Source of the DNA: a virus
DNA length: 24,772 nucleotides
Reading direction: 5' to 3' (one strand)
Virus record (IMG/VR): IMGVR_UViG_3300027763_002051
Location: 1 to 24,772 of that record
Below are positions 6,176-23,416 of this stretch, piece after piece. Below the pieces are notes generated by a model, which saw only the letters and a program-made list of their open reading frames with translations, had not been told where the DNA came from and made no database searches. A program made the position numbers and the translations under genes. Numbering within the stretch: the first letter of the stretch is position 1; the number at the start of each line of letters is the position of its first letter.

Positions 6176-9100
6176 ATGTCCTTACCCGATTTTGGTGGAA
6201 CTGGAACTGACGGCAAGCCAGAGGATAACTTTGGAGGGCCAGAGCCAGAGTACGTGCCAAGGACGAGAGGTGAGGCTAGGGCGCTCGAGCAAGAGCAGAG
6301 GGGTAAGATTAAGGAGGCCACGCAGGCCTATAATTACGGGTCAGAACAAGCCCTTGAAGAAGCTGGGATTGAGTACAAGAAAGACGAGCAAGGATTTGTT
6401 CAGCCCCGCTATGCGCCAAGCAATGAGTTTGGGAGGACTGTTGAGTTTGGGACTTCGGAGTTCCGGGATCCCATTACTGAAGAAACAAGGCAGATCGATA
6501 AAACTGGCAAGGTTAAGCCAAAGAAACGTCAGAATGTAACGTATAAGTCTGGCGACGCGAACAACCCCAATTTTCCCAATCCGTCTAGGATATACAGAGT
6601 ATATACACGCGAGCAGGATGCTGGAGTCGCGGATCCCAACCAACCATTTGCAGCAACCAAGGCAGAAGATATTGGCAGTGCATTCGACTTACAAGGGGTC
6701 TCGGATCAAGGCATTTCATCGCTGGCCAAGGAGACCGTAAGGAAGAATAGGCAATACGAGCTTGGTTCGGCCAAGTCGGTATTAGACGCAAGAGGTCAGC
6801 AGTTGGATGTCGAGTCAGAGACGCTCAAATCCCAGATCGACACCCTTAACCAAACGCCGATCCCAGATTGGCAACCCGATGGCGACAAGATGGATCCAGC
6901 CATTGCGTCCGAGGTTGGAGGAAAGGCTGACGCCAAATCCCGACAAGATGCAGCAGCAAGAATTGGGATGTCTAGGGATCAGAAAATTGCAGATTTCAGC
7001 TCACAGCTGGCCGAAAAGAATAAAGAAAGAATCCGCAATCGCGCCCTTCAGGTTGAGCTTCAGTCCCAGATGTCGCTCGATGAAGGCGAATCGATCTACG
7101 ACAACCGCGTTCAACAGCTTCTAAAGAATGGGGCAAAACAAGAGGATATTGATAAGGATCCGCTTATCGGAGCCATCCGAGAGGGGCTGACGAACATTCA
7201 AAAGCCTGTTCTGCCATTATCAGAGGTTTTCAAGGATCCATCATTAACCCCGCAGGCCATTTATGAAACAAGGGCATCCCAACGCGAAAAGGGCAGGATT
7301 GAGGCCGAGGGAAGGCTTGCAAAGGAAAAGGCCACAGAATTTCTAAAGCCATTCATTGAGCAGGCAACCGATACTTCCATCAGCTACACGACTCTGGCTG
7401 GGCGCAGAAACAGACTTTCATCGGTCTACAACAAGCTTTTGGATGACGCTGATGCGGCCGACACGAAGCAAAAGGGATCAGGATTAAACCTTAGAGCGCA
7501 AGCGTCTGGGTACGCCGAAGCCATTGGAGTTCTGGATGACCAGCTTAGTAAGGTTGGCAAGCAAGCCACAATTGCCGAGCAAAGCGCAAAGATCCAAGGC
7601 GAGTTTGCCAAAGAAAACGAAAAGAGAGTTCAGCAGGAGTTGCAGGGCAGGCTTACAAAACTTGAGCAAGAAACAAAGCAAAAGGTTGAAAAGCTAAAGC
7701 AACGCCGAGGACTAGAGGATGGAACCTTTATGGGACCGCCGGCTCCTGGTGATGTGCCTCCGGCCACTCCAACGCAAGGGACGCCACCAACTCAGCCTAC
7801 GACGCCTCAACCACAGCCCGAAAGCCCGACAAGCTGGTTCAAAGGTGGTCTCAACAACCTATTCAGCAAAGACACGATGCGACAAGCGGCTCGAGGATAC
7901 TTCGAGCTAAATCAGAAGTTTGCTTCTGGTATTTACCTTTCCGCTGCAAACGCATTAAGACTTCGCGGAAAAGAGGTGCCGATATCGGGAGGTAAGCTCA
8001 AGACAGCTGGGGCTGCCTTTATTGACGCCATGACTACATCGCCATCTATGCCCGCCAAAGTTATGGCGGCCCTAAGCATGGTTGATAGGCAGTTTGGCGG
8101 TAAACTTCACAACAGGGCGGCTAAGTTCTTTGAGGAATCCGCAACCGCAGCCAAAGAGAACGAGACGGCAATCCGTGAAGAGAAGTTCCTTGGACTCGAG
8201 CCAGTAAGCCCAGAGTGGCGCGAAAGCGATGTCGGCCAAGTGGTCAAATCTTTGACAGAGCTTCCGTTCTATATTGGCACAACAATGATCAATCCGGCTG
8301 TCGGATTTATTGCAACATTTGGCACATCTTACGATGATGCAATTCAAAACCAGCTAAATGCTGGCGTTAAAAACCCAGACCACGTTACGGCTTTAGCTGA
8401 AGCAATTCCTGTCGCTGCATTCGAGCAGCTCGGAAACATGGTGGAGCTGGGACTTGCTAAAGCTCTGGGCAAAAAATTCATTCAAAGCCTTCAGAGCATG
8501 ACAGCCAGAAGCCTTCGAGGGCTTTTTGCAAGTGCAGCCATGAAGATCGGTGGAGGCGCAATAACCGAAGGAGGGGAGGAAGGCGTCCAGCAATTTTGGT
8601 CAAACATGATTGCCAAGTATATCGGCAAATTTGATCCAACTAGACCGCTAGATAAAGACGTCTGGAAGAGCATCTACGTTGCAATGTGGGCTGGTGGAGC
8701 CGGAGTTACCGCGATGGGAGGCGGATCTGTTGCCCTGACAGGCGCACAGAATTATCTCAACGAGCGTGGCCTCAAGAAACAGGCCGACGAAATGAAGGCA
8801 GCTACAGAGGATATTCCAGCTAACGGATGGGAGGACTGGGGAAATAAACTTCCAGAGCAAATACTGGATCCTGGGCTTGCCGAAAGCTTTGGCGAAATCG
8901 GTGCTGATCTTGACGAGCAACAAGGGAAGTTCCTAGTTGATTTGGCTGACAGCATCAAGGGTGCGCCATTCAGAAGATTGATAGATCTTGGCAAATCAAT
9001 TGACGAAAGCCTCATTCAACCCCCTGCGCTCCAGAGCCGAGCGGCCGGGATCCTGACCGGCGCCAAAAATGAGCAATTGATTGGCGAGGCAAATTTATAT

Positions 9101-12100
9101 GCCGAAAGGGCTAACCTTGCCGCCCTTATGCAGAGCGAGGCACAACTTCGCCTGCGTGTAGCCAGAGAGATTGGAGAGCTTCCAACCGATCCCATGGACG
9201 GCGGGCTGGATCAGCAAGCGGCCGGACTTATCGCGGCCAAGGTTCTGTTTGGATCTAGCGGAGTAACCCAAGAGGAGCTGAAGGCCAAGTACCGAGGGAT
9301 GCTAATCATCCAGACCGATTCTAACGGCATCCAAGTGCCATCAGAGTTTGTTAAGCAGGACATATTCTCAAAAGCACCGACCATGTCCGAACAGCTCAAG
9401 GGGTTCTTGTCGCGAGTTAATCAAGCAATGGCGAACCAGACGGATGCCGGAGGTGCGAGTGCCGAACCGCCAGAACCACCGAAGCCCGAGCAAGAGCCAA
9501 CCGGAAAGCCGAGACAAGTTGATCAAGCAAACCTAAAGACCCCACGCCAGATTGCGGAAGCCAGCGCGAGGACAGGATCCCCAGCCTTAATGGCAAGACT
9601 AGAAGGCACGACTCCGGACGAGAGATGGGCATCGGCAGAATCAAAGATTAAAAATCTAGTTACTGCCATTGGGTCGAAGGGGCTGGATGTAAGGTTTGTG
9701 TCCGATGGGGCAGCATCTTCCGTAGCCTTTGAGGCAGACAATAAAACCCTCCGTATCAGCCTCAATAAAGAGTCGTTCATGGATATGGAGAACACGGATC
9801 CGGAGGCAAACAACCGGTACGTCAGAGAGGAGATAGCCCATCTTGGGGATATTGCAGAGGGAGCATTAGACGCAAAAAGGCAGGGCAAGGATAATTACCG
9901 CCAACATTGGGAACAGCAACGTGCAAACATGCTTTCAAGAATCTTTACTGTTGCAAAGCAGGATAAAGCCGTTGAGCAATCCGTTGTAGCGGCAGCCAAC
10001 CTTTATTTGCCTAAGGTACAAAGAATCATGAAGGCATCTGAGATGCGAATGGGCGCGAATCGAGCCGCTACTGACGACGCCTTGGTTCGTGGAGCTGTTA
10101 AGCCTCAATTCAAAACAGTGTCCGATATTCAGCAGTACATGATCCGCGTTGGAATGTCTGGAGAGAGGGGAGTCCGAGCAATGCCATTATTTATGGCTGA
10201 GATGCTCAGAATGTTAAAGACCTATGGTCAGCCCCAAACGGAGGCAAGAAACTTTCTTCAAACTGCAGCCAAAATAAGCGGGGGATCTAGGACAATCATA
10301 AAAGTAATATCCGATTACCTCCGAAAAGTATACAAAGCGCTGTTTTCAATTAAGGATAGCCTGGTCAAAGCCGACCCTCAGTTGGCTGAAGACTTAAGCA
10401 ATTTGTTGTCTGAGATAGACGATGTTCTCTCCGATTCGCCCAGCCAACCACGGCCAGAAGTGGCTCAACGTAGCCCAAATGTGCCACAAGCCCCAGAGGC
10501 CAAGCCCCGCGCTCCGCCAGAAACAGGAGGTGAAAATGTCCCGCAAGCCCCAGAAACGCCAGAAATTGTCCCGCCCCAAAATGCAGGTGAACCGCCAGTT
10601 ATCGGCCAAACTCCTGAAGGGGGTCAAACAGTTGGAACTATTGCACCGCCGGCCACAAGGATAGTCCCTCGAGGTCGGATGGTGTCAGTTACCTACGACA
10701 AGCTGGGATCTGGAGGAGTTGAATCAGTAACAGAACAAGTCCAGCTGACAAAAGAGCAGGAAGTGGAGTGGGAAAAGGGCGAGGCAGATTACCGGCAATC
10801 AGCGGAGATGGCGAAAAGAACAAGAGATCCAGCTATGCGCTCCAGCCTAATGCAGAGGGCTGGGTACGAGTGGGCAAAAAGAAAAAGAGAAATAACTGGG
10901 CGACTTCATTACAAGGAGCAAAGAGAGAAAGAAGCCCGAGAAAAGAAGAACTACCTTGGCAAGAAGGTCGGCGTACAAACTGAGGGCGGAGTCTTTGCGG
11001 CAACTATCACCGGGAATCCTTTTGGGCGGGTCAAGGTTCGGCTTGAGGATGGGCAAGAGCTGACGGTTTTGCCGGATCAGCTGACAAGCGCACCCGAGAT
11101 CGAGCAAGAGCAATCACAAGATCCTACGGCAATTCCGTCCGGTCAGGTGGTTGACTTCCCGATCAATAAAATCGTTGTTAACGACAAGATCCAGCAGTTT
11201 AAGAAGAAGGCCAAGAAGGATTCTGGAGTCGTAAAAGCTCTAACCGGAGAATACCAAGCAACTCCGAAAAACCCGATTGTTATCTGGCAAAGGAACGACG
11301 GCGTATTTGAGGTGATCACCGGCCGACATCGGCTGGATCTCGCCAAGCGGAACAATATGGCGACAATTCCAGCACAAATCGTCAAAGAATCAGAGGGTTG
11401 GACTCAAGAGAAAGCTGAAACATTTGATGCCGAAGCGAACATCCGTGACGGCCAAGGCGACCTAGAGGACTTTGCTTACTATTTTAGAAAGTCTGGAATC
11501 AGCCAGCAAGACGCCGAAGCAAAGGGTCTTTTGCGTGATGACGGCAAGGGGAAAGCTGGATTCTTAATCGCTAACGAGGCGACTGAGGACGTTTATAGCG
11601 GTGTATTGATGGGGAAAATTGACCCGGGCATGGCATATATTATCGCCTCTAGCGCCCCAAGGTCAGCAGGAGCATTAAACGAGGGGATTCAGCGGCAAGC
11701 TCTAGCTCTGATTACCACCGAAAGAACAAATCAATCAGAGCTTAAGAACTTCATTGCTGGGATGGTCGCAAAATTTGCTGACCAAGGCCCCTCCGAATCA
11801 CAAGGGGATCTGTTTGGTGGGGATGACTCGGCTCTTGAATTGATGAAACAAAGGGCAAAGAAGGCCGCAAAGAAGCAAAAAGGGCTGAAGGACGAGCTTA
11901 ACGCACTTCTAAGCTATAAGAAGCTTAGCAGTGGACAGAGAGCGAAAATTTTAGCTGACAGAGGAATTTCGATTGGGGCCGGCGAAGATGTTGACGGCAG
12001 AATCGCAAAGGAAATAACAGATTTGCAGGCTGATCTCGCCTCTTGGGAGAGGTGGGCTACAGATCCAGCAAAAGTAAGCCAAATCGACCAAATGCCTGAT

Positions 12101-15100
12101 ATTAAGGCACAAAGGATCGATATTCAGGCCCAACGAATTGACCAAAACCAAGAAGGAGGCGTAGAATCTAATCGTGAAGAAAGAACTCAACCCGGAACAA
12201 GTGAAGGAATACAGCCAGATAGCAGCGGAGGAGGCATATCCCCGACTGGTGAAGTGGCAACGGGACAACCCGGACAACTTCAGAATGTGGAAGACGGACG
12301 CGGACGCGCTGTACCAGGATCCGTGGATCAACGACCTGACGGAGGATCCGGAGAGAACCAAGGATTGGCTGACAACGCTGTTCCGACAAGCCTGCGGATC
12401 AGTAGAGGGCCACAACCAAATCTTAGCGCTATTCAGTCGCTCCAAAGGAGAGAACCGAGAGGCGAAGTTGGGCGAGCTTCTGACGTCAATGACGCTGAAC
12501 GAGTTTTAGGCGAGGGACTAGAAACCCAGATCCCTTGGGTTCCAGTAATTCAAGGTAACGGAGTCAGCCTAAAAACATTTGCTCCAGTTGGCATCGCGGA
12601 CGAGATCCGCAGAAATCTTGAGAGAATTGATAGCGAGCGTGGCGGACTCGAGAATTATGTATCGAAGGCGTTAGGCTTCGGAGATGTATCGGAGCTTTAC
12701 CGAGTCGTAAATCCAAAGGCCGGATCTAGATTCAATAAGGAGCAAGTAGAGACAATCGCGGCTTCACTTGACCGCATGGACGCAGGCAAGGCCTGTATCA
12801 TTGGACACGAGATGGGTATAGGCAAAGGCCGCATCTGTGCAGCCTTGCTTTACGCAGCTTATTTACGCGGGCAAATCCCAGTCTTTTTCACGGCCAACTC
12901 GAGAACCTTGTACCCAACCCTAATGGATGACTTTAGGGATCTTGGATTCAAGATGGATCCATTTATTACCGACCAAGACTTCGAGTCAGTAATGGGAGAC
13001 GGGAATGTTTTAACAAACAAGGGAAAGAACCCGAAAGCATTGTTCGATTCGATAGCAGCAAGCAAGAAATTGCCGGCTGGCAAGACGCTGGTAATGACCA
13101 CATGGGAACAAGCGCGACTCAAGGATGTAAATGCTGTTCTTAACGCTCTGGCTCCAAATGCGGTATTCATTATCGATGAGGCTCACAAGGGAACTGGTGA
13201 CTCGCTTTCATCGGAAGTAGCTCGAGGAATTCTAAAGAAAGCCAAAGGGGTCTCATTCTCAAGCGGAACTGCTATTAAGAATCTGGAGGCGATGCGCCTC
13301 TATTTCCCATTCACTTCAGTCAATCGGGCTGTTCCGTCCGTCCGCCGGTTGAACCAGCTTCTCAAGAAGTTTGCTAATCCTTTGCTCGAGCTGATGAATC
13401 GTGGACTTGTCTCTGCGGGTGAATATATCCGCTACCAGAGAGGCTTGACCCATAATGGTCTGCCAGTCCCATTTACCCCATTGGCTCTTCGTACCGGCCC
13501 CCAAGTTGCAGAGGTAAACGAGACCGCAAATGAGATCGCTGGCGAATTAAAGCAGATCCAAGCGGGGCCGTTCATGAAGCAACTGCGGGCTGTGCTACAG
13601 CCTTTGGCGAAAACCAAGGCCGCCGCAATGATCGAGGACAAGCCAGAGCTGGCCGAAACCCTGACAATTAAGGTCGAGCCTTACCCCATGAAGTCGCAAT
13701 TCCACAACATTGCAAACATCATGGTTCTGGCATCAAAGATCCCAGAGATTTCAAAGCAGATAAAAACCCTGGTCGACCAAGGCAATAAGGTGTTTGTAGC
13801 TTCAGATTCAACTGGAGAGGCAGCGGTACAAGAGTTGCTTGACGATGTTTCGCTGGAAACCGATCCAAAGAATGCCTCGTTTGCGGATGCCCTAGCCCGA
13901 TATACCGACAAGCTGAGGTATGTAACTATCACGGCAAAGGTCGGCCCCAAGGGAAGACAGCAGACTTTATTCCGCCAAAAGCTTGATCTGAATAGGGCGC
14001 AAGAAGAATACCCAGAGGCAGTAGAGAGAGCGCAGCAAGTGCTTCAGCAGATCTCGGATGCCAAGAGCATGATTGAGTCCTCGCGGGATGTTCTCGGCCG
14101 GTTAGGCATCTCGCCAATGGACACACTCCGACAGCAGTTAGAGTCTGTACAGATCCCCAGCGTCGAGATTTCCGGCCGGTCGGCCACGGTTATGCCCGAT
14201 GGGACCCGCGAAAAGCGGACGGAGCTAGACCAAGACCGGATGGCATCACTTTCTATGTTTAACAACATGGATGATATGAACGTAATTTCAGTTTCACGCT
14301 CTGGCTCAACTGGAATCAATGCCCATAATTCCCCTAAATTCATCTCGCAAAAGGATCGAGTGTTCTTTCTTTTACAGCCCTCTCCGAACGTGGTTGATAC
14401 AGTTCAAGTAGCGTTCCGCGTGAATCGAACCGGACAGCTGACGGCTCCTCACCTCTATATGGCGTATGCAGAGGAGTTGCCCGCCGAGAAGCGGATCATG
14501 GCCTTAACGGCCAAGAAGATGTCAAAACTCGGTGCTTCAAGCACCGGAGGTCAACGGCTGGATATGTCGGAAACATTCGGAGAGGACATGCACAATGCTT
14601 ACGGCGACCTCGCAATTGCCAATGTTCTGGCAAGGGACGAAACGTTCCGACAAGAGTTCCAGACTAGGCATAACGAGTACTTCCCGGGATCCAACGAAGA
14701 GGAGATCCGAGCGAACCTAATGAAGGGATCTGGCAACGGAGATGTGTTCAGAAGGTTTGAACACATGCTCATTATTATGCCTTTGGACATCTACTCCCAA
14801 ATTTCTGAGCAAGTACGCGACGAGTACAATGAGATTGTAGAAACAGAGAAGATGGCTGGACGCTACAATCTCACGTCCGAAAAGATGGACTACAAGGCCG
14901 TGCTAGTGGATGACATGCCTGGAATGGCTCCATACAGCCCCCGCAAGGAGGGTGAGCCAGACATCGGGACAGCCCAGCCCACGCAACTCCGCAGATACAG
15001 ATTTACCAACCCAACACCACCGCCCGCATCCGAACAGCTGGTCAAGGACATCGACAAGGTAAAAGCCGACACGGCTCAACTCGTCCAGAAATACAATGAA

Positions 15101-18100
15101 TCAGCAGAAAAATATCTAAGTGACCGAGTTAATTTCATTAACAGCAGATCCCGCCTTGATCCAAATGCAAAGAATCTCCTTATTCAGGCTATCACCAGAA
15201 AGATGGCGGTAGCCCAAACGGCCGTGGCGGATGCGGCTGAAAAGGTGGGCGGAAGCTACTGGTATCACATTAACGATACCCAAGTTCCAGTATTCGTTAC
15301 TGGCTTAAGGCTTAACCCCAAGTATCCGCATGTAGTCGCTTCCCAGCGGTTGCTCATCCAAAGCGCAGGATTCAACCATCTAATGCCGGTTCCGCTTTCT
15401 GCTAACCCTCTCTCTCGGCTGGCGTCAGCTCGGGCTGCTTTCAATAACAACCCGCTTGAGCAAGAGGAGCTTGGAGTTGAGATGCCTCTTCTGGATGTCA
15501 GCCCAACCGGCCAAGACGCCGAAGCGGCGTTCTATCGCTCATTCAAGCAGACGGAATCTTATGCAGCTGCAAAAGCTTGGGAGAATCATCCATTCTCGCT
15601 CAGAGAAAAATACATGAGCTTTGCTATGGATAGAGCTGGGTATCGACCAGGATTCTTCCGAGTAAACCGAAAATTCTCAGACGGAAAGACGCTGAATGGT
15701 CTTTATTATGATGGAAACACGATTATTGAAATGTCGCCTGTTCGTACCCGCGAGATTCTTTCCTTTGTATCCGAGAGGACTGAAAACGCCCAAACCGAGA
15801 AAGACGTAATCGACGCATTTGCAGAAGCGTTGGATGCAACGCAGGACATCGACACAATGACCGATGAAGGCGCGGTAGCAACGGATGAAGGGCAAAAAGA
15901 TTTTGTAAGCAAGATGAACAATCGCCGGCGCAACCAAGTTGTAGCCGAGGCGTATGACCGCGAGCGGCAGAAGGCGATGCAACAAGATCACTTCGTCATC
16001 GTTGGCAATCCATTGGTGGCCGCCGATATGTCCACAAGGTTGTTTGGTCAGCAGTTAAATCACCGAGTTATGCGGTTCACCAACCAAGACGGAGGCGAGA
16101 CGACTGGCATTGTTGTTCCTAGCCAAGCCGAGTTCAGCCAGCTCAAGAAGCTTTCAAATGTGCTTACTGTCAGAGAGACAATCCAGCGTTCTGACGCCGA
16201 GAAAGTCTTGGACTACCTGAATAGCACAATCACAAGACACCATAACGCAACGGAGGTCGTGTTTACTGACGGAGCCACAATTTCTTACGCAACCACAGAG
16301 GCAACGGCCATCGAGACCCCGCATTCGCTCAAATCGATAATTCCGATCAGCAGTTTGGCGGAAAGCCAGCTGGCCGATCTGTCCGTTGTGGAGGAGACCG
16401 GAGTACCAGACGAGGTAAGGGCAGAGATTGAGAAGCTAGTTCCTGGAGCAAAGGTGTCGGCCGAAGGGCCGTACATTACGGTTTCGATGGGCGGTTTTGA
16501 TGCGGGCAATTACATAGCTCGGCGCATGAGGTCGCGAAGCATTCCAGATCAAAATGCGGGACAGCGATACTTTTACGCAGATCCAAAGAAGGGCGAAGTC
16601 TTTGGGCCAGTCGGCCTAGCAGCATTGAACCAAGATTACATGATGAGCCGAATCAGTGAGGACACCCTTGTGTATCCAGAGGATCCAAGCATGCCGAAAG
16701 ACTGGAATCCCGGAACCCCATCACTTACGGACGGAACCTCTGAGTGGATGCCTTACGCAGATGTCGCAAAGAGCAAAGCAGTCGAATCTCCTGCAGGATC
16801 CGCAATCGAGGGTTACGCCTATTCCGGCCCCCGATCAGTTCAGATGAACGCCCAGCGTATTGGGGATGAAATCACCCCAGAGATCTGGAACTACTACCGG
16901 ATCGCTACCCAGCAGACCACTGACTCAGATGGTAACGTGGGGCCGTCGCCGGCAGTTCGAATGGTTCTGCGGATGTTCCCAAATATGGATGCATCGTATG
17001 TAGAGGATTCGGCCGTTTCTGGTGTCTTGAAGGCCGTCAAGGCACTTGCCGTAATGCGGACGCAGGATCCGGGCAAGTTCGCCGAAATGGAGGGATCCGC
17101 AGCTCCTGAAGGCGGAATACCCAAAAAGGTGTTCTCGTACATGGTCGAAGCCGCCAAAAACAGCGTCCTTACGTCCTACCAGAAGTTTGGGCAGTACGAA
17201 GTTGACCCGCCCGAGCAACAAGGAATGCAGATGCTTGAGGACGAGGAGACTGTGGCCGAGCTTCTTGTCGGAAGGGCAACGGCAGTAAGTGAGGATGAGG
17301 GGCCGGACATCGTTACACCTAAGGACGTAGAGGAGACCGAGTTTACTAAGGCACTTCGTAGCGACATGGAGGCCGCATTCCAGACCATTGATCCGCGCTT
17401 GGCTCAAGTGTTTGTAGCTCATAACCGAGGAATGACATTTGAGGCAATTGCAGATGAATTTGGGTTACCCCCGATTATTGGAGAGGACGGCAAACAGCGC
17501 CCAAACAAGCAGATGGCCCAGCGTATGTACGATGATGCGCTTCGATCCTTACAAGACTTTGCCGGTGACAACAGCTTGTTCGCAACCAACTCGAAGCCCC
17601 AAAAGCCTGTAAGTAAGGCCTTACGGCTTGCGATGGAGGCAGGGCTAATTCGACCCATGTCGATCAATGCGCAGAGGATTTATACAACCAATTCTGAGGA
17701 AGATGGCGAAACAGCGAACCTTGTTCGGCAGTTCCGTAACACCCAGCTCGGGCAAGCCATTATGGCCCTTCGTTCCGGACCGCAACCAGCTGGCAACCTC
17801 ATCCGCGGGATTGCAGAGCCAGCAAATGAAAACAACAAAGCGATCCAAGCCTACTATCGGTTGCTTAGCCAAGCCTTGGTCAAGGGGATTGAAGCCAACC
17901 CATCGTCGTTCCTTGGTAGGGCAGCAAATACCGACGTAGTAATTGATGAATCGATCCCAACATCCCACTTCTCATCGATCAAGATGGATCCATTTACGAT
18001 GGGGATCATCAGACTTCATCCTGGTCAATTGAGTCCAAGGGTAATTCTGCATGAATTCGTCCACTCCTTTACCGCTCAACTTATTGGGAGTGAAATCGTT

Positions 18101-21100
18101 AAGAATTTCCAGCCTCGGCGCGGAGAGATGTCCGGATCGAAGTATCGCGAGGCATTAACTACTTACGCAAACAAGCAACCCCTAGACGCTGATAATCCTA
18201 CTGGGGCAATCCCAGCCATGCAGAGCCTTGTGAAGGCATATCTTGGGGCATTGAAGTATGCCAAAGACGATGCTGGTCAACCCATTGAGAACGCGATCTT
18301 CGGATCGGGCCTAACAGCCAGCTTCTCAATCACGCTACCGATGCACCGAGCAAGCTATGCCGGCGGATTACACATGTCGGCCCACATTGATGCCTCAAAC
18401 TCAAAGGCTATCTATGAACACTTTACCGGACTTGGGCTTGAAGGTAAGGCCGGAGTGCCAAATGACACTTTGGATGCCTACGTAAACAAGAACGGGGCGA
18501 CCAACGACTTCTTTATCTCTAGTCCGGCCGGATCCTTGGCTGGTTTAGAGGTTGAGGCGGACGGAAAGCTGATTCTTACCCCTTCTGGGCTAGAGAAGCT
18601 AAGGACTCAAAACATAGCCCCTTCGGCATATTCGACTTACACAATACGGTCAACGAAGCCTGTGTTTAAGCAGAGGATTCTGGGTGTTGTTGGCGATCCT
18701 GGCAAAAAGGCGATGTCGATTCTTTATGGGTTCAAGAACATTGACGAGTTTTCCGCTGAAACAATGAGCAACCCTTCCTTTGTGGGAATGATTGCCAACT
18801 TGGATGTCCCGAAAGGGCTAACCAAAACTCCCCACGACTACCTAGTGGAGTGGTTCGACCAGCTTGAGTCAGACCTATTGAACCTAAAGGGCGGAATGAA
18901 GGGAGCCGTGAGGAACATGGCAGCCGGAACCCTTGTGGGATCAACGGCCGGATCCTTGATGGACATCGGATCCATCAAAATTACCGATTATCAGACAATT
19001 GTTGGGAATCGTGATTCAGCCGCAAGGTCGGAACCGACCACCCAACAAGGCCAGCTCTTTGCCCAAAGGATCGGCGGAGACAAGCTGGAGGATAAGATTT
19101 CTAATACTATTCAAGCAATGCCAAGGGGTGGCCTAATCACTACCACTAAAGGGGCATTCTCAATACGGCCGAGGGTTGGTTCGGATGGATGGGTAACAAG
19201 GGGCATCGATAACCCAAGAAGGGTAATCACTAAGACCATCTCGGCAGCGGTTGCTGGGTTGCCCGGGATACGCGGGATGGTGCAAGTGGTCAAATCCTAC
19301 ACCCGCGATGACGTAGCCCCTTCGGATGCGGGCGGGGAGAAAAACCCATTGGCCTTGGAATACAAGAGATTGACCGATATCCCGACCCCAACCGAAGAGC
19401 AACGCAAGCGGATCTCGGAAATCGAGAAGTTTGCCACGAAATACAAAATGCCAGGAGTTGGGGTTCAGCAATCCTTATTTGATACAGAGAAGTACGCTGG
19501 ATCGCCCAACCGGCCGACGGCATCCAGCCCATCCGTCATCGAGACTCCTCCTGCCAAGTTTATCGCTCCCCAGATGGAGCTTGCCCTTAATGCCCAGCGT
19601 ATTGAGCCAAGTGGAGCGAAGAAAATCCTTTCTGAAATTAACGATCTTCGCGCGATGCGTGATTCCGGCCAACCCTACAATGAGAAGCGGTTGCGTCAGT
19701 TAGAGTTTACCGCCAACCAGACCAAGCTGTCTGGATATCAACCAGAAGGCCAGCTGATGCCAACAGAGACCAGCGTGAACCCCACGACTCAGCCTTTTGC
19801 GTTAGAGCAAGAAACTCGGGCAGGGATGGTTCAAGGCAATCTATTCGCCCAAAGGCTTGATTACGACGAGAACGGAAACCCTGTAATTACGCCAAAGCCA
19901 CTTACCCCAGAAGAGTTGATGTCTATCCGAGCCGATCTCTTGGGCGACCTCGGCAAAGATACCCAAGAAGTAATGGCGATGTATCGCAAGTTGCGAGTCC
20001 AGCCATCTGGAACCAAAACGCTAGGCGGAGTTTACCAAAACGGAGAAAATGGCGGTCCGGCAAGAAGCTTGGCAAACCCTGGACAAACCTCCCAACAGAG
20101 AGACCTAATCAACGCCATGGACGCTATGCGGTTCCAGCGTGGACTCGGAATTAAGCAGGATACGGCAGTTGAAGACGCCGCTATTCAAATTCTTTCCACC
20201 CCAGAAGGCCGGCTTGGAGTCCAAGAGGCCGTTCTTTCCGGACAGTCCCTAAACACGGAAACAACATTAGCTGCCATGAAGATGGTCGGAGAGATGGTGC
20301 AAACGGCAATTACGAGCGGAAACGCCGAGGATCTAGGCAAGGCGTACGCAATGACGTACATGTATCGCGAAGCCAGATCTGAGACGGCTCGCGCCCTGCG
20401 AATTGGCTATGACAGATTAATGACGCCAGCACAGCGTCACGCCGAGTTCCTCATGGCCGTAATGGTTCAGCCGGAGCGGAATAGGATTCTCGACCTAAAG
20501 TATTACCCAACCGAAGCCCAAAACCGGAACGATATCCGAAGCCTTCAGGCGACCCTCGAAGACTTAATCAAAGAGAGGAACGGCTTGCTTGAGTCTAGGC
20601 AAGAGGCAAGCAACTCAGAAGAAATGAAGGCCGTTCTCGAGCAGAGGAACGCCGAGATCCAAGCCCTGCAAGGGCAAATCTCAGATTTACAGAATCGCGT
20701 GACTCGAGAACAAGTCATGGCCCAAGAGGCGCAGGATAGGTTGGCCGATGTGAATCGCACGCTGGCTGGTCTCGGGACAAATCTAGAGCAGTTAATGAAA
20801 GAGTCCGAGCTTTCGGAAATCAGAACCGGACGGCCGGCCACTCAAATGCTCGATCAGGTCAGACTTTCCCCGAAAGAACGCGAGGCGGTGGAGCTGATCA
20901 TGATCGGGCATGACCCAGTTTCAGTTTCCAAGCAAACCAAGGTCAAGATGGTGGACATTAAGGGCGCTATGGATGTCATGCGATCCGAGGCCAAGAGAAG
21001 GTTTAGCCAAATTGCCCAGAGCGGAATGACCCGCGACCAGCTCCGTAAGGCACTTCTAGAAAACGCAAGAACGGACGCCTCGATGAGGCAGATCATGGCC

Positions 21101-23416
21101 CAACGTATTCCGGATAATCAGCCACTAGGTGAGGACGAGGCGATGGAAGAGATCTATAACATGCTCGGACTTACACTTACCCCAACTGGCGAATACAAGT
21201 GGGCCGAGCGTAAGGGTAGAAGCAACCTTTTCGATCTGCGGAAGCCAGAACATATCGTGGTGTTGGCTAAAGCTATGCAGGCAGGGAAGCCGACCATAGA
21301 CGGGACATTGTTCGAGGCGTATGTCTCAAGCATTTTCAGCGGGTTTGCAACGCAACTTGCAAATGTGGCGATGACTCCGGCTTCCCCGATCACGACATCT
21401 GTCCATCGTGGATTTCAAGCCATCACTTCGTATCTGCTCGGGCAAGCTGGCATCAATCAAGAGGTAGAGATCGACAGAATTGATGATCGCCAAGTCCCGC
21501 TCTTTAGACCAAGCACGGCCTACAAAACAATGTCAGAGGCTATTAGAGGAGCGGGGAGTGAAATTGGATACATCTTGAGGTCAGTTGTTCCTGCGTTTTT
21601 CGAAGCTTCAACAATGGGCAGATTGGCTTGGGCAACTGAAGCGGGGTTCTTTGATTACAATGTTTCTGGAGTGCTTGAGGACATTGACGACCCACAGACA
21701 AGGTTTGGCGCGTTCCTGCAAAAGTACGGAAGAACAAGAAACACGAGGATCCCCGGGAAGCTTGGGAAAGCTATTCGCGTTCCGCTTCGAGGCCTGCTCG
21801 CAGCTGACGAATTCACCAAGACGTTTAGGGCATACATGACAGTCGGGGCACACGCATACCGGCTCGGCAAAGCGGCCGGGCTTAATGGGGCAGAACTAAG
21901 CTCGTTCGTAGAAAAAGAGGTCAGGGGGGCTGGATCAACAAGCTGGATGCTCGCAGCTCGTCGGGCGACCAAGGAGACATTCACATTCCAGCTACGGCCT
22001 GAGGGAGGAAGTGTTCGTTCTGTCGGAGACTTTGCGGCCGAAAACGTAGGGCGACTCTCGGATTTCTACGCAAGCCTTGAAAACGCCGCAACTGCCATGG
22101 ACGGAAATCCAGTATTTATGCCGGCTAGGGCAGCTCTTCGTCTGATCCAGTCGTTCTTGGTTTTAATTAAAAGCCCATTCAACATTTACCGCGAGGGCTA
22201 CTCCTACACGCCACCAGCCATCCTTAATCTGATCTCAAGAGCTAGAAGGGTCAAAGAGACAGATGTTGCTGGCAAGAAAACAAAGTATCTGCCTGTCACC
22301 GAGTATGATGACTTCGTTGAGAGGCTAACAAGCTTTGGAATCGGAACTGCAGTACTTGCCGGACTTCTAACTGGAGCAGCAGAGGGAGATGACGATGACG
22401 ATAAGAAGATGTTGCTTATTACTGGAACGCCAGATCCATTGGCACCAGGTGGACAGCGAGTGACTAGATTTGGGAATCCTCCATTCAAATTCATTCTCCG
22501 CGGTGACTGGCTTAAAAGCCTTGGAGTTACCACTGGAGAATACGCGCTCGATTACAGCCGAGTTGAACCAATTGGAACTGTGGTTTCATCAAATGTAAAT
22601 ATCGCAAGAACAATGAAGGAATCGGTAAGAAACCCAAGCAGGGCAGGTTCTGCTGGTGCAAATCTCTTTAAAGACTACTTCTTGGCTCCAGCGACAAGAA
22701 CATACGGCAAGCAATGGCGCGATCTGATCAGCTTGTTTGATTTAGAGGGAAGCGGTTGGCAACGAGTATTAAGAGACAAGCTATCGGCCATAATGTCGCC
22801 CAATCTATTCAAGCAACCATTTGGAGGAATTCAAGAGTACGAGAAGGACGTTTATAATCCAGATCCATTAGCCCCCGATGCTCTTGCATTTGCGGTACTA
22901 CCGGGACTCGGAGATCAGCTTGGAATTCCAGACCGGCGGACGTTCGAGGGCATGAAAGTGCCTAACCCAGTTCCGTATGAAGGTGCTGGCCCAGTCGCAA
23001 GGTCGGTCGTTCGATTACTTCCCGGACGATTTGGGGAAGGATTCGGGAAAACAGACTTTGAGAAATTCGTAGATAACTACAACCGACAACACCCAGACAA
23101 GAGGTGGAACCCAGATCTTTCTAGGCCGGATCGGTTCTTTGATGACAAGTATCTACGCCAGAGGGTTGCGTTTACCAATGACGAGTACGAGATGGTGCTG
23201 AAGATGGCAGCCCCCAAAATAAGGGCTTATCTGTACGGCAATAGTTCAGAAAACGGTGCTTTGTCCCAAAAAGACATATCTGGTTTTGTTTCGGAAGATC
23301 GCAAGGACACAATTCAAAGGACGATCTCTGGGTACTATCGGGACGCCAAAAAAGCGGTTGTGGATGCGCGGCACAGAAGAGAGCTGAAAGCTTTACAGTC
23401 TAACCCCTCAAAGTAA
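6176..23416 (+). CDS. Giant polyvalent virion protein (5,746 aa): ParB, helicase, sigma-like, metallopeptidase and other domains
   Basis: One uninterrupted frame of 17.2 kb. The start is fixed by an in-frame TAA at 6167-6169, leaving ATG 6176 as the first start codon; no good ribosome binding site is seen. Domains in order (residues): coiled coil about 190-512; Pro-rich linker 519-552; Gly/Ala hydrophobic helices 693-865; 'EEIAHL' segment around 1218; Pro-rich linker 1420-1495; SH3-like barrel 1593-1640; ParB/DdrB-like 1653-1840; strawberry-notch helicase about 2114-2830; accessory domain 3272-3327; GYF_2-like 3463-3532; sigma-like 3563-3797; HEFVH peptidase 3835-4210; coiled coil 4783-4879; region-4-like HTH 4897-4946; hydrophobic C-terminal domain 4979-5746. 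Proteins of this kind ('large polyvalent proteins') are known in phages and conjugative elements and are thought to enter the cell with the DNA. The gene lies between head genes, which fits a virion protein. It may be processed at AQR[I/L] sites. Confidence 0.95.
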   Translation: MSLPDFGGTGTDGKPEDNFGGPEPEYVPRTRGEARALEQEQRGKIKEATQAYNYGSEQALEEAGIEYKKDEQGFVQPRYAPSNEFGRTVEFGTSEFRDPITEETRQIDKTGKVKPKKRQNVTYKSGDANNPNFPNPSRIYRVYTREQDAGVADPNQPFAATKAEDIGSAFDLQGVSDQGISSLAKETVRKNRQYELGSAKSVLDARGQQLDVESETLKSQIDTLNQTPIPDWQPDGDKMDPAIASEVGGKADAKSRQDAAARIGMSRDQKIADFSSQLAEKNKERIRNRALQVELQSQMSLDEGESIYDNRVQQLLKNGAKQEDIDKDPLIGAIREGLTNIQKPVLPLSEVFKDPSLTPQAIYETRASQREKGRIEAEGRLAKEKATEFLKPFIEQATDTSISYTTLAGRRNRLSSVYNKLLDDADAADTKQKGSGLNLRAQASGYAEAIGVLDDQLSKVGKQATIAEQSAKIQGEFAKENEKRVQQELQGRLTKLEQETKQKVEKLKQRRGLEDGTFMGPPAPGDVPPATPTQGTPPTQPTTPQPQPESPTSWFKGGLNNLFSKDTMRQAARGYFELNQKFASGIYLSAANALRLRGKEVPISGGKLKTAGAAFIDAMTTSPSMPAKVMAALSMVDRQFGGKLHNRAAKFFEESATAAKENETAIREEKFLGLEPVSPEWRESDVGQVVKSLTELPFYIGTTMINPAVGFIATFGTSYDDAIQNQLNAGVKNPDHVTALAEAIPVAAFEQLGNMVELGLAKALGKKFIQSLQSMTARSLRGLFASAAMKIGGGAITEGGEEGVQQFWSNMIAKYIGKFDPTRPLDKDVWKSIYVAMWAGGAGVTAMGGGSVALTGAQNYLNERGLKKQADEMKAATEDIPANGWEDWGNKLPEQILDPGLAESFGEIGADLDEQQGKFLVDLADSIKGAPFRRLIDLGKSIDESLIQPPALQSRAAGILTGAKNEQLIGEANLYAERANLAALMQSEAQLRLRVAREIGELPTDPMDGGLDQQAAGLIAAKVLFGSSGVTQEELKAKYRGMLIIQTDSNGIQVPSEFVKQDIFSKAPTMSEQLKGFLSRVNQAMANQTDAGGASAEPPEPPKPEQEPTGKPRQVDQANLKTPRQIAEASARTGSPALMARLEGTTPDERWASAESKIKNLVTAIGSKGLDVRFVSDGAASSVAFEADNKTLRISLNKESFMDMENTDPEANNRYVREEIAHLGDIAEGALDAKRQGKDNYRQHWEQQRANMLSRIFTVAKQDKAVEQSVVAAANLYLPKVQRIMKASEMRMGANRAATDDALVRGAVKPQFKTVSDIQQYMIRVGMSGERGVRAMPLFMAEMLRMLKTYGQPQTEARNFLQTAAKISGGSRTIIKVISDYLRKVYKALFSIKDSLVKADPQLAEDLSNLLSEIDDVLSDSPSQPRPEVAQRSPNVPQAPEAKPRAPPETGGENVPQAPETPEIVPPQNAGEPPVIGQTPEGGQTVGTIAPPATRIVPRGRMVSVTYDKLGSGGVESVTEQVQLTKEQEVEWEKGEADYRQSAEMAKRTRDPAMRSSLMQRAGYEWAKRKREITGRLHYKEQREKEAREKKNYLGKKVGVQTEGGVFAATITGNPFGRVKVRLEDGQELTVLPDQLTSAPEIEQEQSQDPTAIPSGQVVDFPINKIVVNDKIQQFKKKAKKDSGVVKALTGEYQATPKNPIVIWQRNDGVFEVITGRHRLDLAKRNNMATIPAQIVKESEGWTQEKAETFDAEANIRDGQGDLEDFAYYFRKSGISQQDAEAKGLLRDDGKGKAGFLIANEATEDVYSGVLMGKIDPGMAYIIASSAPRSAGALNEGIQRQALALITTERTNQSELKNFIAGMVAKFADQGPSESQGDLFGGDDSALELMKQRAKKAAKKQKGLKDELNALLSYKKLSSGQRAKILADRGISIGAGEDVDGRIAKEITDLQADLASWERWATDPAKVSQIDQMPDIKAQRIDIQAQRIDQNQEGGVESNREERTQPGTSEGIQPDSSGGGISPTGEVATGQPGQLQNVEDGRGRAVPGSVDQRPDGGSGENQGLADNAVPTSLRISRGPQPNLSAIQSLQRREPRGEVGRASDVNDAERVLGEGLETQIPWVPVIQGNGVSLKTFAPVGIADEIRRNLERIDSERGGLENYVSKALGFGDVSELYRVVNPKAGSRFNKEQVETIAASLDRMDAGKACIIGHEMGIGKGRICAALLYAAYLRGQIPVFFTANSRTLYPTLMDDFRDLGFKMDPFITDQDFESVMGDGNVLTNKGKNPKALFDSIAASKKLPAGKTLVMTTWEQARLKDVNAVLNALAPNAVFIIDEAHKGTGDSLSSEVARGILKKAKGVSFSSGTAIKNLEAMRLYFPFTSVNRAVPSVRRLNQLLKKFANPLLELMNRGLVSAGEYIRYQRGLTHNGLPVPFTPLALRTGPQVAEVNETANEIAGELKQIQAGPFMKQLRAVLQPLAKTKAAAMIEDKPELAETLTIKVEPYPMKSQFHNIANIMVLASKIPEISKQIKTLVDQGNKVFVASDSTGEAAVQELLDDVSLETDPKNASFADALARYTDKLRYVTITAKVGPKGRQQTLFRQKLDLNRAQEEYPEAVERAQQVLQQISDAKSMIESSRDVLGRLGISPMDTLRQQLESVQIPSVEISGRSATVMPDGTREKRTELDQDRMASLSMFNNMDDMNVISVSRSGSTGINAHNSPKFISQKDRVFFLLQPSPNVVDTVQVAFRVNRTGQLTAPHLYMAYAEELPAEKRIMALTAKKMSKLGASSTGGQRLDMSETFGEDMHNAYGDLAIANVLARDETFRQEFQTRHNEYFPGSNEEEIRANLMKGSGNGDVFRRFEHMLIIMPLDIYSQISEQVRDEYNEIVETEKMAGRYNLTSEKMDYKAVLVDDMPGMAPYSPRKEGEPDIGTAQPTQLRRYRFTNPTPPPASEQLVKDIDKVKADTAQLVQKYNESAEKYLSDRVNFINSRSRLDPNAKNLLIQAITRKMAVAQTAVADAAEKVGGSYWYHINDTQVPVFVTGLRLNPKYPHVVASQRLLIQSAGFNHLMPVPLSANPLSRLASARAAFNNNPLEQEELGVEMPLLDVSPTGQDAEAAFYRSFKQTESYAAAKAWENHPFSLREKYMSFAMDRAGYRPGFFRVNRKFSDGKTLNGLYYDGNTIIEMSPVRTREILSFVSERTENAQTEKDVIDAFAEALDATQDIDTMTDEGAVATDEGQKDFVSKMNNRRRNQVVAEAYDRERQKAMQQDHFVIVGNPLVAADMSTRLFGQQLNHRVMRFTNQDGGETTGIVVPSQAEFSQLKKLSNVLTVRETIQRSDAEKVLDYLNSTITRHHNATEVVFTDGATISYATTEATAIETPHSLKSIIPISSLAESQLADLSVVEETGVPDEVRAEIEKLVPGAKVSAEGPYITVSMGGFDAGNYIARRMRSRSIPDQNAGQRYFYADPKKGEVFGPVGLAALNQDYMMSRISEDTLVYPEDPSMPKDWNPGTPSLTDGTSEWMPYADVAKSKAVESPAGSAIEGYAYSGPRSVQMNAQRIGDEITPEIWNYYRIATQQTTDSDGNVGPSPAVRMVLRMFPNMDASYVEDSAVSGVLKAVKALAVMRTQDPGKFAEMEGSAAPEGGIPKKVFSYMVEAAKNSVLTSYQKFGQYEVDPPEQQGMQMLEDEETVAELLVGRATAVSEDEGPDIVTPKDVEETEFTKALRSDMEAAFQTIDPRLAQVFVAHNRGMTFEAIADEFGLPPIIGEDGKQRPNKQMAQRMYDDALRSLQDFAGDNSLFATNSKPQKPVSKALRLAMEAGLIRPMSINAQRIYTTNSEEDGETANLVRQFRNTQLGQAIMALRSGPQPAGNLIRGIAEPANENNKAIQAYYRLLSQALVKGIEANPSSFLGRAANTDVVIDESIPTSHFSSIKMDPFTMGIIRLHPGQLSPRVILHEFVHSFTAQLIGSEIVKNFQPRRGEMSGSKYREALTTYANKQPLDADNPTGAIPAMQSLVKAYLGALKYAKDDAGQPIENAIFGSGLTASFSITLPMHRASYAGGLHMSAHIDASNSKAIYEHFTGLGLEGKAGVPNDTLDAYVNKNGATNDFFISSPAGSLAGLEVEADGKLILTPSGLEKLRTQNIAPSAYSTYTIRSTKPVFKQRILGVVGDPGKKAMSILYGFKNIDEFSAETMSNPSFVGMIANLDVPKGLTKTPHDYLVEWFDQLESDLLNLKGGMKGAVRNMAAGTLVGSTAGSLMDIGSIKITDYQTIVGNRDSAARSEPTTQQGQLFAQRIGGDKLEDKISNTIQAMPRGGLITTTKGAFSIRPRVGSDGWVTRGIDNPRRVITKTISAAVAGLPGIRGMVQVVKSYTRDDVAPSDAGGEKNPLALEYKRLTDIPTPTEEQRKRISEIEKFATKYKMPGVGVQQSLFDTEKYAGSPNRPTASSPSVIETPPAKFIAPQMELALNAQRIEPSGAKKILSEINDLRAMRDSGQPYNEKRLRQLEFTANQTKLSGYQPEGQLMPTETSVNPTTQPFALEQETRAGMVQGNLFAQRLDYDENGNPVITPKPLTPEELMSIRADLLGDLGKDTQEVMAMYRKLRVQPSGTKTLGGVYQNGENGGPARSLANPGQTSQQRDLINAMDAMRFQRGLGIKQDTAVEDAAIQILSTPEGRLGVQEAVLSGQSLNTETTLAAMKMVGEMVQTAITSGNAEDLGKAYAMTYMYREARSETARALRIGYDRLMTPAQRHAEFLMAVMVQPERNRILDLKYYPTEAQNRNDIRSLQATLEDLIKERNGLLESRQEASNSEEMKAVLEQRNAEIQALQGQISDLQNRVTREQVMAQEAQDRLADVNRTLAGLGTNLEQLMKESELSEIRTGRPATQMLDQVRLSPKEREAVELIMIGHDPVSVSKQTKVKMVDIKGAMDVMRSEAKRRFSQIAQSGMTRDQLRKALLENARTDASMRQIMAQRIPDNQPLGEDEAMEEIYNMLGLTLTPTGEYKWAERKGRSNLFDLRKPEHIVVLAKAMQAGKPTIDGTLFEAYVSSIFSGFATQLANVAMTPASPITTSVHRGFQAITSYLLGQAGINQEVEIDRIDDRQVPLFRPSTAYKTMSEAIRGAGSEIGYILRSVVPAFFEASTMGRLAWATEAGFFDYNVSGVLEDIDDPQTRFGAFLQKYGRTRNTRIPGKLGKAIRVPLRGLLAADEFTKTFRAYMTVGAHAYRLGKAAGLNGAELSSFVEKEVRGAGSTSWMLAARRATKETFTFQLRPEGGSVRSVGDFAAENVGRLSDFYASLENAATAMDGNPVFMPARAALRLIQSFLVLIKSPFNIYREGYSYTPPAILNLISRARRVKETDVAGKKTKYLPVTEYDDFVERLTSFGIGTAVLAGLLTGAAEGDDDDDKKMLLITGTPDPLAPGGQRVTRFGNPPFKFILRGDWLKSLGVTTGEYALDYSRVEPIGTVVSSNVNIARTMKESVRNPSRAGSAGANLFKDYFLAPATRTYGKQWRDLISLFDLEGSGWQRVLRDKLSAIMSPNLFKQPFGGIQEYEKDVYNPDPLAPDALAFAVLPGLGDQLGIPDRRTFEGMKVPNPVPYEGAGPVARSVVRLLPGRFGEGFGKTDFEKFVDNYNRQHPDKRWNPDLSRPDRFFDDKYLRQRVAFTNDEYEMVLKMAAPKIRAYLYGNSSENGALSQKDISGFVSEDRKDTIQRTISGYYRDAKKAVVDARHRRELKALQSNPSK
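7541..7830 (+). other. N-terminal coiled coil and proline-rich linker of the giant protein
   Basis: Residues 456-512 form a Lys/Glu/Gln heptad-rich helix ('RVQQELQGRLTKLEQETKQK'). It is followed at 519-552 by a Pro/Thr/Gln linker ('PPATPTQGTPPTQPTTPQPQ'). This separates the polar N-terminal part (1-512) from the hydrophobic segments downstream. Confidence 0.7.
8252..8770 (+). other. Glycine/alanine-rich hydrophobic segments
   Basis: Residues 693-865 contain 'PFYIGTTMINPAVGFIATFG', 'KIGGGAITEGGEEGVQQFW' and 'AMWAGGAGVTAMGGGSVALT'. Alternating Gly/Ala-rich hydrophobic stretches and a 'TEGGEE.VQQ' helix resemble membrane-interacting parts of phage internal virion proteins. A role in crossing the cell envelope during DNA ejection is inferred. 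Confidence 0.5.
9650..10290 (+). other. Segment with a degenerate peptidase-like motif EEIAHL
   Basis: Residues about 1159-1371. 'RYVREEIAHLGDIAEGAL' (E1218-L1223) has the shape of the zinc-helix found in polyvalent metallopeptidases but lacks the first His of HExxH. Upstream are beta-like strands ('VRFVSDGAASSVAFEADNKT'), as in minimal metallopeptidases. It may be an inactive relic or a variant; only weakly supported. Confidence 0.35.
10525..10533 (+). promoter_or_regulatory. Strong Shine-Dalgarno sequence AGGAGGTGA inside the giant gene
   Basis: AGGAGGTGA is followed three bases later by ATG 10536, in a different frame from the giant gene. Core-to-start spacing is close to ideal, better than at any main gene of the window. 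It may be chance inside a low-complexity linker. Confidence 0.4.
10536..10664 (+). CDS. Possible nested 42-aa basic ORF
   Basis: ATG 10536 to TAG 10662-10664, in another frame, inside the Pro-rich linker of the giant protein (residues 1454-1496). The product is very basic ('MSRKPQKRQKLSRPKMQVNR', then 'QLSAKLLKGVKQLELLHRR'). The ribosome binding site is excellent. However, a CC-rich Pro/Glu linker read one base off naturally yields Arg/Lys/Gln text, so composition gives no support. Listed because initiation here is plausible. Confidence 0.2.
   Translation: MSRKPQKRQKLSRPKMQVNRQLSAKLLKGVKQLELLHRRPQG
10952..11098 (+). other. SH3-like small beta barrel
   Basis: Residues 1593-1641: 'YLGKKVGVQTEGGVFAATIT', then 'GNPFGRVKVRLEDGQELTVL'. 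Short strands broken by Gly and ending in 'V.V.LEDG.ELTV' fit an SH3-like barrel often found just before ParB-like domains in polyvalent proteins. Probably a nucleic acid or peptide binding module; fold assignment is by pattern only. Confidence 0.5.
11132..11700 (+). other. ParB/DdrB-like nuclease-fold domain
   Basis: Residues 1653-1841. The core is 'VVDFPINKIVVNDKIQQF', 'NPIVIWQRNDGVFEVITG' and the signature 'GRHRLDLAKR' at 1716-1725, followed by 'IPAQIV' and 'EANIRDGQGDLEDFAYYF'. This is the ParB/Srx fold with the helical extension seen in DdrB-type antirestriction-associated proteins. ParB-fold domains bind DNA and nucleotides, and some are nucleases. Here it probably acts on incoming or host DNA. 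A 'QGDLFGGDD' string (Q1876) follows the domain, as in relatives. Confidence 0.8.
12098..12139 (+). repeat. Tandem DI[K/Q]AQRI repeat
   Basis: Two 21-base units (12098-12118 and 12119-12139) encode DIKAQRI and DIQAQRI at residues 1975-1988 of the giant protein, in the linker between the ParB-like domain and the helicase. The units differ at several bases, mostly third codon positions. Confidence 0.85.
12151..12159 (+). promoter_or_regulatory. Shine-Dalgarno sequence AGAAGGAGG before the nested gene
   Basis: A perfect anti-16S complement (AAGGAGG, 12153-12159) inside the giant gene, 14 bases upstream of the nested GTG at 12174. The spacing is longer than ideal, but the match is better than at most annotated starts here. 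A TAG at 12162-12164 closes the nested frame upstream, so initiation must be at or near 12174. Confidence 0.5.
12174..12509 (+). CDS. Overlapping gene nested in the giant gene (111 aa)
   Basis: GTG 12174 to TAG 12507-12509, one frame off the giant gene. The product has the composition of a real soluble protein, with an ordinary mix of charged and hydrophobic residues, four Trp, and helical segments ('MKKELNPEQVKEYSQIAAEE', 'DADALYQDPWINDLTEDPER', 'DWLTTLFRQACGSVEGHNQI', ending 'LLTSMTLNEF'). Over the same interval the giant frame reads as a Gly/Gln/Ser/Arg-rich linker (residues 2000-2111) between the AQRI tandem repeat and the helicase. That contrast is the opposite of what a random shadow frame shows. 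A strong Shine-Dalgarno lies upstream. Best explanation: an older small gene was overprinted when the flanking parts fused into one giant frame. Function unknown; no family recognised. Confidence 0.6.
   Translation: MKKELNPEQVKEYSQIAAEEAYPRLVKWQRDNPDNFRMWKTDADALYQDPWINDLTEDPERTKDWLTTLFRQACGSVEGHNQILALFSRSKGENREAKLGELLTSMTLNEF
12515..14660 (+). other. Strawberry-notch-type SF2 helicase domain
   Basis: Residues about 2114-2829. Motif I is 'GHEMGIGKGR' (2210-2219), the SBNO-style variant of GxGxGK; motif II is DEAH at 2334-2337 in 'VFIIDEAHKG'; motif III is 'SFSSGTA' at about 2361-2367; motif VI is 'QVAFRVNRTGQ' (2744-2754) with two Arg. This helicase type occurs in eukaryotic Strawberry notch and in phage and plasmid DarB-like antirestriction proteins. 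It is expected to move on duplex DNA using ATP, possibly shielding or remodelling incoming DNA. All catalytic residues appear intact. Catalytic methylase motifs were not seen next to it. Confidence 0.85.
15989..16156 (+). other. Helicase-associated accessory domain
   Basis: Residues 3272-3327: 'FVIVGNPLVAADM', then 'HRVMRFTNQDGGETTGIVVP'. A 'GN-x-L' turn followed by a '[VR]-F-T-x-x-D-G' hairpin and a 'GI-V-[VL]-P' strand is a module I associate with the region behind the helicase core in DarB/SNF2-type polyvalent proteins. The role is unknown, perhaps DNA or partner binding. Confidence 0.45.
16559..16780 (+). other. GYF_2-like domain
   Basis: Residues 3463-3532. 'RYFYADPKKGEVFGPVGLAA' matches the GYF_2 opening (aromatic strand, then G-x-V-x-GP and a helix beginning L-x-x-L). 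It continues with 'SRISEDTLVYPED' (the I-x-x-x-T-L-V strand) and ends 'SEWMPYADVA' (W-x-P-x-x-x-x). An insertion, 'PSMPKDWNPGTPSLTDG', lengthens the loop. GYF domains bind proline-rich peptides, and the giant protein and its 501-aa neighbour both have proline-rich stretches. The domain sits just before an AQRI site. Confidence 0.6.
16862..17565 (+). other. Sigma-70-like segment
   Basis: Residues 3563-3797, bounded by AQRI sites at 3559 and 3832. 'DASYVEDSAVSGVLKAVKAL' and 'VFSYMVEAAKNSVLTSYQKF' mimic sigma region 2 (D-[AV]-E-D-x-x-x-x-x-x-L-K-A, and x-x-A-[RK]-N-x-x-x-x). 'DPRLAQVFVAHNRGMTFEAI' with 'ADEFGLPP' and 'NKQMAQRMYDDALRSLQDF' (3739-3796) mimics region 4 (x-x-V-F-x-x-x-x-x-G-x-[ST]-[FY]-x-E-I-A-x-x-[LF]-G-[LV]-x, then a recognition helix). 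If functional it could redirect host RNA polymerase from within an ejected virion protein. The assignment rests on pattern alone. Confidence 0.6.
17680..18810 (+). other. HExxH metallopeptidase domain with a large insertion
   Basis: Residues 3835-4210, bounded by AQRI sites at 3832 and 4296. The zinc helix is 'RVILHEFVHSFTAQ' with H3959, E3960 and H3963. The likely third ligand region is 'YGFKNIDEFSAETMSNPSF' (E4191 or E4195), matching the 'EF-x-AE-x-x-S-NP-x-F' signature of polyvalent-protein peptidases. About 230 residues lie between the two motifs, longer than I expect for this type. They include 'ATNDFFISSPAGSLAGLEVE' and other beta text, so another domain may be inserted. It is a candidate processing protease. 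Confidence 0.75.
20522..20810 (+). other. Long coiled coil near the C-terminus of the giant protein
   Basis: Residues 4783-4879 show clear heptads: 'DIRSLQATLEDLIKERNGLL', 'LEQRNAEIQALQGQISDLQN', and a final helix ending 'NLEQLMKE'. It probably drives oligomerisation directly before the HTH segment. Confidence 0.75.
20864..21016 (+). other. Sigma region-4/LuxR-like helix-turn-helix
   Basis: Residues 4897-4946: 'LSPKEREAVELIMIGHDPVS', then 'VSKQTKVKMVDIKGAMDVMR' and 'SEAKRRF'. The 'LSPKEREA-V-x-L' opening and two-helix spacing are those of sigma region 4 and related HTH domains, although the recognition helix is unusual. It would be a second DNA-binding element after the one at 3739-3796. Confidence 0.5.
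21110..23413 (+). other. C-terminal hydrophobic domain of large polyvalent proteins
   Basis: Residues 4979-5746. 'FEAYVSSIFSGFATQLANVA' (about 5046-5065) corresponds to the recurring 'x-x-x-x-S-[IL]-[LF]-SG-x-x-T-Q-x-x-N' opening. 'AADEFTKTFRAYMTVGAHAY' and 'LIQSFLVLIKSPFNIYREGY' follow, and a probable membrane helix 'LTSFGIGTAVLAGLLTGAAE' (5384-5403) precedes an acidic run 'GDDDDDKK'. This layout closes many phage polyvalent proteins and is thought to be a virion or membrane-inserting part. The last AQRI site lies just before it. Confidence 0.6.

Follow-up and report, generated by a model that had tools for sequence, protein, structure and literature searches.

Does a 111-codon open reading frame (ORF) that lies in the +1 frame of a far larger phage gene encode a protein of its own, or is it only a shadow of the frame that contains it? 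The question is raised by the window, the whole stretch of 24,772 nt analysed here (IMG/VR record IMGVR_UViG_3300027763_002051). It represents part of the genome of a tailed phage; in it, a giant ORF sits between the genes for the terminase large subunit and an SU10-type portal. The product of this ORF is a giant multidomain phage protein with an SF2/strawberry-notch helicase and is thus assigned to the polyvalent proteins. With a probability of about 85%, the nested ORF in the linker before the helicase of this DarB-like protein would be a real, separately translated gene. The relevant features are as follows:

2265-4079: terminase large subunit gene (GpA ATPase)
6176-23416, + strand: giant ORF, 5746 codons, polyvalent-protein-like
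12107-12139, + strand: two AQRI motifs of the giant protein just 5' of the nested gene, candidate processing sites
12153-12159, + strand: AAGGAGG, Shine-Dalgarno (SD)-like, 14 nt 5' of the nested GTG
12162-12164, + strand: TAG in the nested frame, a few codons 5' of the nested start
12174-12509, + strand: nested gene of 111 codons, from GTG start to TAG stop, shifted by +1 against the giant ORF
12176-12508, + strand: giant-frame segment under the nested gene, a stop-free linker under no constraint at the amino-acid level
12734-14872, + strand: SF2/strawberry-notch-type helicase of the giant protein, shortly 3' of the nested gene
12734-13237, + strand: ResIII domain, part of the helicase
14117-14872, + strand: Helicase_C_4 domain, part of the helicase
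from 23426: SU10-type portal gene, 3' of the giant ORF

Selection on the two frames of the overlap

The nested ORF was found exactly where the initial annotation had placed it, with the four Trp residues noted there. The AAGGAGG sequence reported upstream is invariant in six genomes, and the giant frame is indeed of low complexity in this region (rich in Gly, Arg, Ser and Gln). The proposal that the nested frame looks better than the main one holds for the hydrophobic fraction (0.29 in the nested frame versus 0.15 in the giant frame) but not for codon usage, in which the giant frame of the window scores slightly higher. Likewise, the ends of the ORF are natural in that start and stop are conserved; the start codon, however, is GTG rather than ATG, and the initiator Met is therefore only implied. 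The encoded protein is acidic (pI 4.9), albeit moderately so with a charge of about -5, and is predicted to be all-helical. The anti-SD energy at 12153-12159 ranks in the strongest 1% of nearby positions, at a spacing to the GTG that is longer than usual. Between the two, the TAG at 12162-12164, conserved in the six genomes, closes the nested frame upstream of its start.

By itself, the size of the nested ORF is unremarkable: antisense ORFs in the window reach greater length, and the composition of the linker gives a chance of ~0.09 for a stop-free +1 frame. What exceeds chance is its conservation. Five IMG/VR contigs carry relatives of the nested protein (88-95% identical), each inside an open giant frame, and the GTG start, the TAG stop, the AAGGAGG sequence and the nested reading frame are kept in 6/6 genomes (the window and the five relatives); stops in the nested frame beside an intact giant frame were not seen. 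When divergence was computed on full codon alignments of the giant gene (564 windows along the gene), fourfold sites of the giant frame diverged by 0.011 in the overlap compared to a median of 0.397, the lowest value of all 564 windows, and this conservation starts and stops together with the nested ORF.

The distribution of substitutions within the overlap follows the nested frame. Giant codon positions 1, 2 and 3 carry 252, 68 and 50 substitutions, respectively, as opposed to 6,871, 3,935 and 22,864 over the whole giant gene. Giant position 1 corresponds to nested position 3, and 68% of the substitutions in the overlap fall on nested third positions. The pN/pS ratio is 0.15 in the nested frame and about 2.3 in the giant frame of the overlap, the latter value indicating no amino-acid constraint. 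Simulations in which the nested protein was encoded with ordinary codon choice yielded 8.4 stops on average in the giant frame, and not one of 20,000 trials kept it open; the real giant frame has none, which implies that both frames are maintained. Taken together, the alignments strongly support the dual-coding region suggested by the initial annotation: the nested frame is under purifying selection, and the giant segment that it overlaps has the character of an unconstrained linker kept free of stops. An antisense ORF at 11951-12445 shares its third positions with the nested frame and could have explained the conservation; this was rejected, as five of six genomes have stops in that ORF.

Further observations concern the giant gene at large. 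The giant protein contains nine copies of the motif AQR[ILVM] compared to 0.46 expected in shuffles (window positions 12107-21109; giant residues 1978, 1985, 3559, 3781, 3832, 4296, 4473, 4558 and 4975); the motif is often preceded by LF, LN or IN, and most copies are conserved in relatives. Possibly, these copies are protease sites at which the giant is cut into pieces, two of them just 5' of the nested gene. The contig IMGVR_UViG_3300022752_000002 (loci L035, L037 and L038) has a terminase 71% identical to that of the window; its giant gene matches only in the N-terminal and C-terminal parts and differs in the middle, including the helicase, which suggests module exchange within the giant ORF. 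Having neither the helicase nor the linker, the giant of this more distant phage was uninformative on the nested gene.

The pre-helicase linker in other phages and plasmids

The arrangement in the window would be one case of a recurrent one that is found in the same linker of giant helicase genes in phages and cyanobacterial plasmids. The giant gene of Bacteroides phage BS-TP4, which was reached via the helicase, has its own 119-codon +1 ORF in the pre-helicase linker. Comparison with an IMG/VR relative revealed 44, 25 and 9 differences at giant positions 1, 2 and 3, i.e., the same codon signature. A helicase scan of viral contigs retrieved 38 loci. In all 31 other viral loci whose long giant frame runs through the linker, several of these 31 being near-duplicates, the linker holds a +1 ORF with 99 or more codons, compared to a background of 26 other ORFs of that size in 267 kb of the same giants; the remaining seven of the 38 loci, those with separate genes, lack it. 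A +1 ORF of 146-168 codons occupies the same place in seven cyanobacterial plasmids (carriers: Picosynechococcus, Synechococcus NIES-970, Chroococcidiopsis, Leptolyngbya and Gloeobacter). That of Picosynechococcus PCC 7002 lies on plasmid pAQ6 (L053:3471-3977) and would have a 168-aa product. Overall, these viral and plasmid ORFs comprise 99-168 codons and specify acidic products.

The dual-coding signature was recovered in five further groups (cyanobacterial, A1, A2, B1 and B2). In each, the nested site is the locus-wide minimum of third-position change in the giant frame, with a fourfold divergence of 0.00-0.21 versus medians of 0.36-0.62; groups C and D, the most divergent, are saturated, so that the signature cannot show there. 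The signature is absent from the other linkers in these giants. Among 30 phage nested proteins, the pI ranges from 4.2 to 5.3 and about 30% of residues are hydrophobic, versus 8-17% in the linkers that they overlap. Judged by these patterns, the nested ORFs of the other groups are genes rather than shadows. Their leaders differ: an anti-SD match stands at canonical spacing 5' of the nested ATG in four loci (L078, L081, L086 and L087), and in Bacteroides-type loci the leader is A-rich and has no SD. The two kinds of leader suit the initiation habits of the respective hosts.

The nested gene is confined to part of the helicase genes. Among 80 bacterial genome loci with the helicase, it is present in the seven closest to the phage giants and absent in 61 shorter fusions; chromosomal methylase-helicase fusions do not have it. 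No nested gene of this kind was found in the Pseudomonas, Bosea and Cupriavidus plasmid helicase genes that were checked, and P1 darB has no acidic nested ORF; the +1 ORFs present in darB and in these plasmids look like basic shadow text. In Phocaeicola massiliensis DSM 17679 (L114), the helicase segment is identical to that of phage BS-TP4 and so is the nested protein; this region is apparently a prophage.

Origin, function and translation of the nested gene

The initial annotation had regarded the nested gene as older than the fused giant frame that overprints it. This history could not be established: no stand-alone homologue turned up, the nearest sister lineage has neither nested ORF nor linker, and codon usage, which is intermediate for the two frames alike, does not settle the order (of 30 loci, 23 have the better score in the nested frame overall but only 16 on synonymous choice). 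The search for stand-alone homologues of the window's nested protein covered phages, plasmids, viral contigs and bacterial genomes; all that it retrieved was the five IMG/VR relatives, every one nested in an open giant frame. The nested proteins gave no significant match to Pfam, PHROG or PDB families. For 21 diverse phage members outside the window's group, AlphaFold yielded a confident model (pLDDT 90.7, pTM 0.83), to which the PDB offers no match. The own AF2 model of the window protein is weak (pLDDT 70.6), and fold searches with it returned no match.

Because the window protein has no detectable homology to the other nested proteins, both one ancient, fast-evolving gene and repeated overprinting are possible. 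The odds are about even that all nested genes descend from a single ancient overlapping gene that diverged past recognition, its absence from the sister lineage then being a loss. The same linker, the same frame and similar size and acidity across loci point to this origin, as does the weak similarity that joins phage groups A, B and C (C versus B, E = 6e-4). The window's gene shares linker position and +1 frame with these families but not detectable sequence homology: profile-profile comparison (hhalign) was insignificant, and against every family profile the window group stays at the level of its shuffled sequences. Furthermore, the closest helicase relatives outside the group (L098-L103, 35-37% identity) possess a long giant frame in which both this linker and the nested ORF are missing.

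The isolation of the window group and the state of L098-L103 are likewise what would be expected if overprinting had struck the pre-helicase linker, as a hot spot, on several independent occasions and had produced the window's gene on one of these. This scenario, to which somewhat less than even odds are given, draws additional plausibility from the fact that hydrophilic linkers permit +1 ORFs. However, since the other linkers of the same giants are without the signature, an open frame alone does not account for the site.

With regard to function, co-location suggests, tentatively, that the nested product is a dedicated partner of the giant made from the same message, and that it may fold, hold or inhibit the part of the giant that handles DNA (helicase/methylase) until packaging or transfer. 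In a broader and equally tentative formulation, one linker of giant polyvalent genes, in phages of several hosts and in cyanobacterial plasmids, would harbor a conserved, unannotated second-frame gene for small acidic, obligate helicase partners; their main family has no known fold match, and the gene may have arisen anew at the same spot in some lineages, including that of the window. The principal functional alternative, an antirestriction DNA mimic that is not a partner of the giant, is unlikely: acidity is common to all nested proteins, and polyvalent proteins of the DarB type counteract restriction (PMC5512222), but the charge of the window protein is modest and Foldseek matched no known DNA mimic.

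As to translation, some ribosomes would start internally at the GTG, directed by the AAGGAGG sequence, and produce the small acidic helical protein, while others would read on through the linker to complete the giant. Alternatively, ribosomes might slip into the +1 frame within the linker, so that the first ~2,000 giant residues would be followed by a terminal 111-residue tail. SD-like sequences within coding regions can stimulate frameshifting, one is placed inside the giant frame here, and the +1 offset is constant in all loci. Internal initiation is nevertheless preferred because of the conserved upstream stop and the conservation of start codons and N-termini: the nested-frame stop 12 nt 5' of the GTG is conserved in the six genomes, in other lineages the frame opens only a few codons 5' of a conserved ATG that is followed by a conserved N-terminus, and some loci have an SD at initiation spacing. 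A frameshift thus seems very improbable. Least credible is a non-coding nested frame, whether conserved as a packaging site, RNA structure or regulatory element or arising as a by-product of a hydrophilic linker: such linkers fairly often leave the +1 frame open (mean probability 0.13), but this explanation is largely refuted by the codon-position pattern described above, by conservation limits that coincide with those of the ORF and by the same pattern in five other groups.

Relation to known systems

The closest described relatives of the giant are the phage and plasmid polyvalent proteins with an MTase-SNF2/strawberry-notch helicase dyad, with P1 DarB as the methylase-helicase archetype (Iyer et al. 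2017, PMC5512222). Like these, the window's giant is a multidomain protein with a strawberry-notch-type helicase; Pfam detected no MTase domain in it, and the dyad is common, not universal, among polyvalent proteins (PMC5512222). No acidic nested ORF comparable to that in the window's giant gene is seen in P1 darB. Term searching of the survey (PMC5512222) found no mention of overlapping or nested genes, and a full-text literature search found no report of this one; subscription-only papers and bioRxiv lay outside its scope, and novelty is provisional.

A nested ORF at the same place has been annotated on the Gloeobacter morelensis plasmid pGMOR1 (L109:1492-1941), where RefSeq lists it as a separate protein (WP_230844304.1) whose sequence has no detectable similarity to that of the window protein. 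It is annotated only because the start of the overlapping, shortened helicase gene was placed 3' of it; the helicase frame is actually open from locus position 477. Elsewhere, the extra gene, which many distantly related giant genes harbor at this spot, was mostly missed by annotation pipelines: as gene callers reject long same-strand overlaps, proteins that travel with DarB-like polyvalent proteins go unseen. Such genes would give a concrete handle on the control of giant injected phage proteins, and cultured carriers (Phocaeicola massiliensis DSM 17679, Bacteroides phage BS-TP4 and Picosynechococcus PCC 7002) make their expression directly testable. As a set, they provide a natural experiment on overlapping genes, in which site and frame stay constant across many lineages and the linker frame gives way to the nested one.

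Nested phage genes as such are well known from lambda (Rz1 in Rz) and phiX174 (E in D). With these, the window shares a complete small gene that lies inside another, in the +1 frame and with an internal start. It differs from them in that the host frame encodes a linker between domains of a giant protein. A further difference is that very distant mobile elements repeat the arrangement at this spot, with nested sequences that are not the same.
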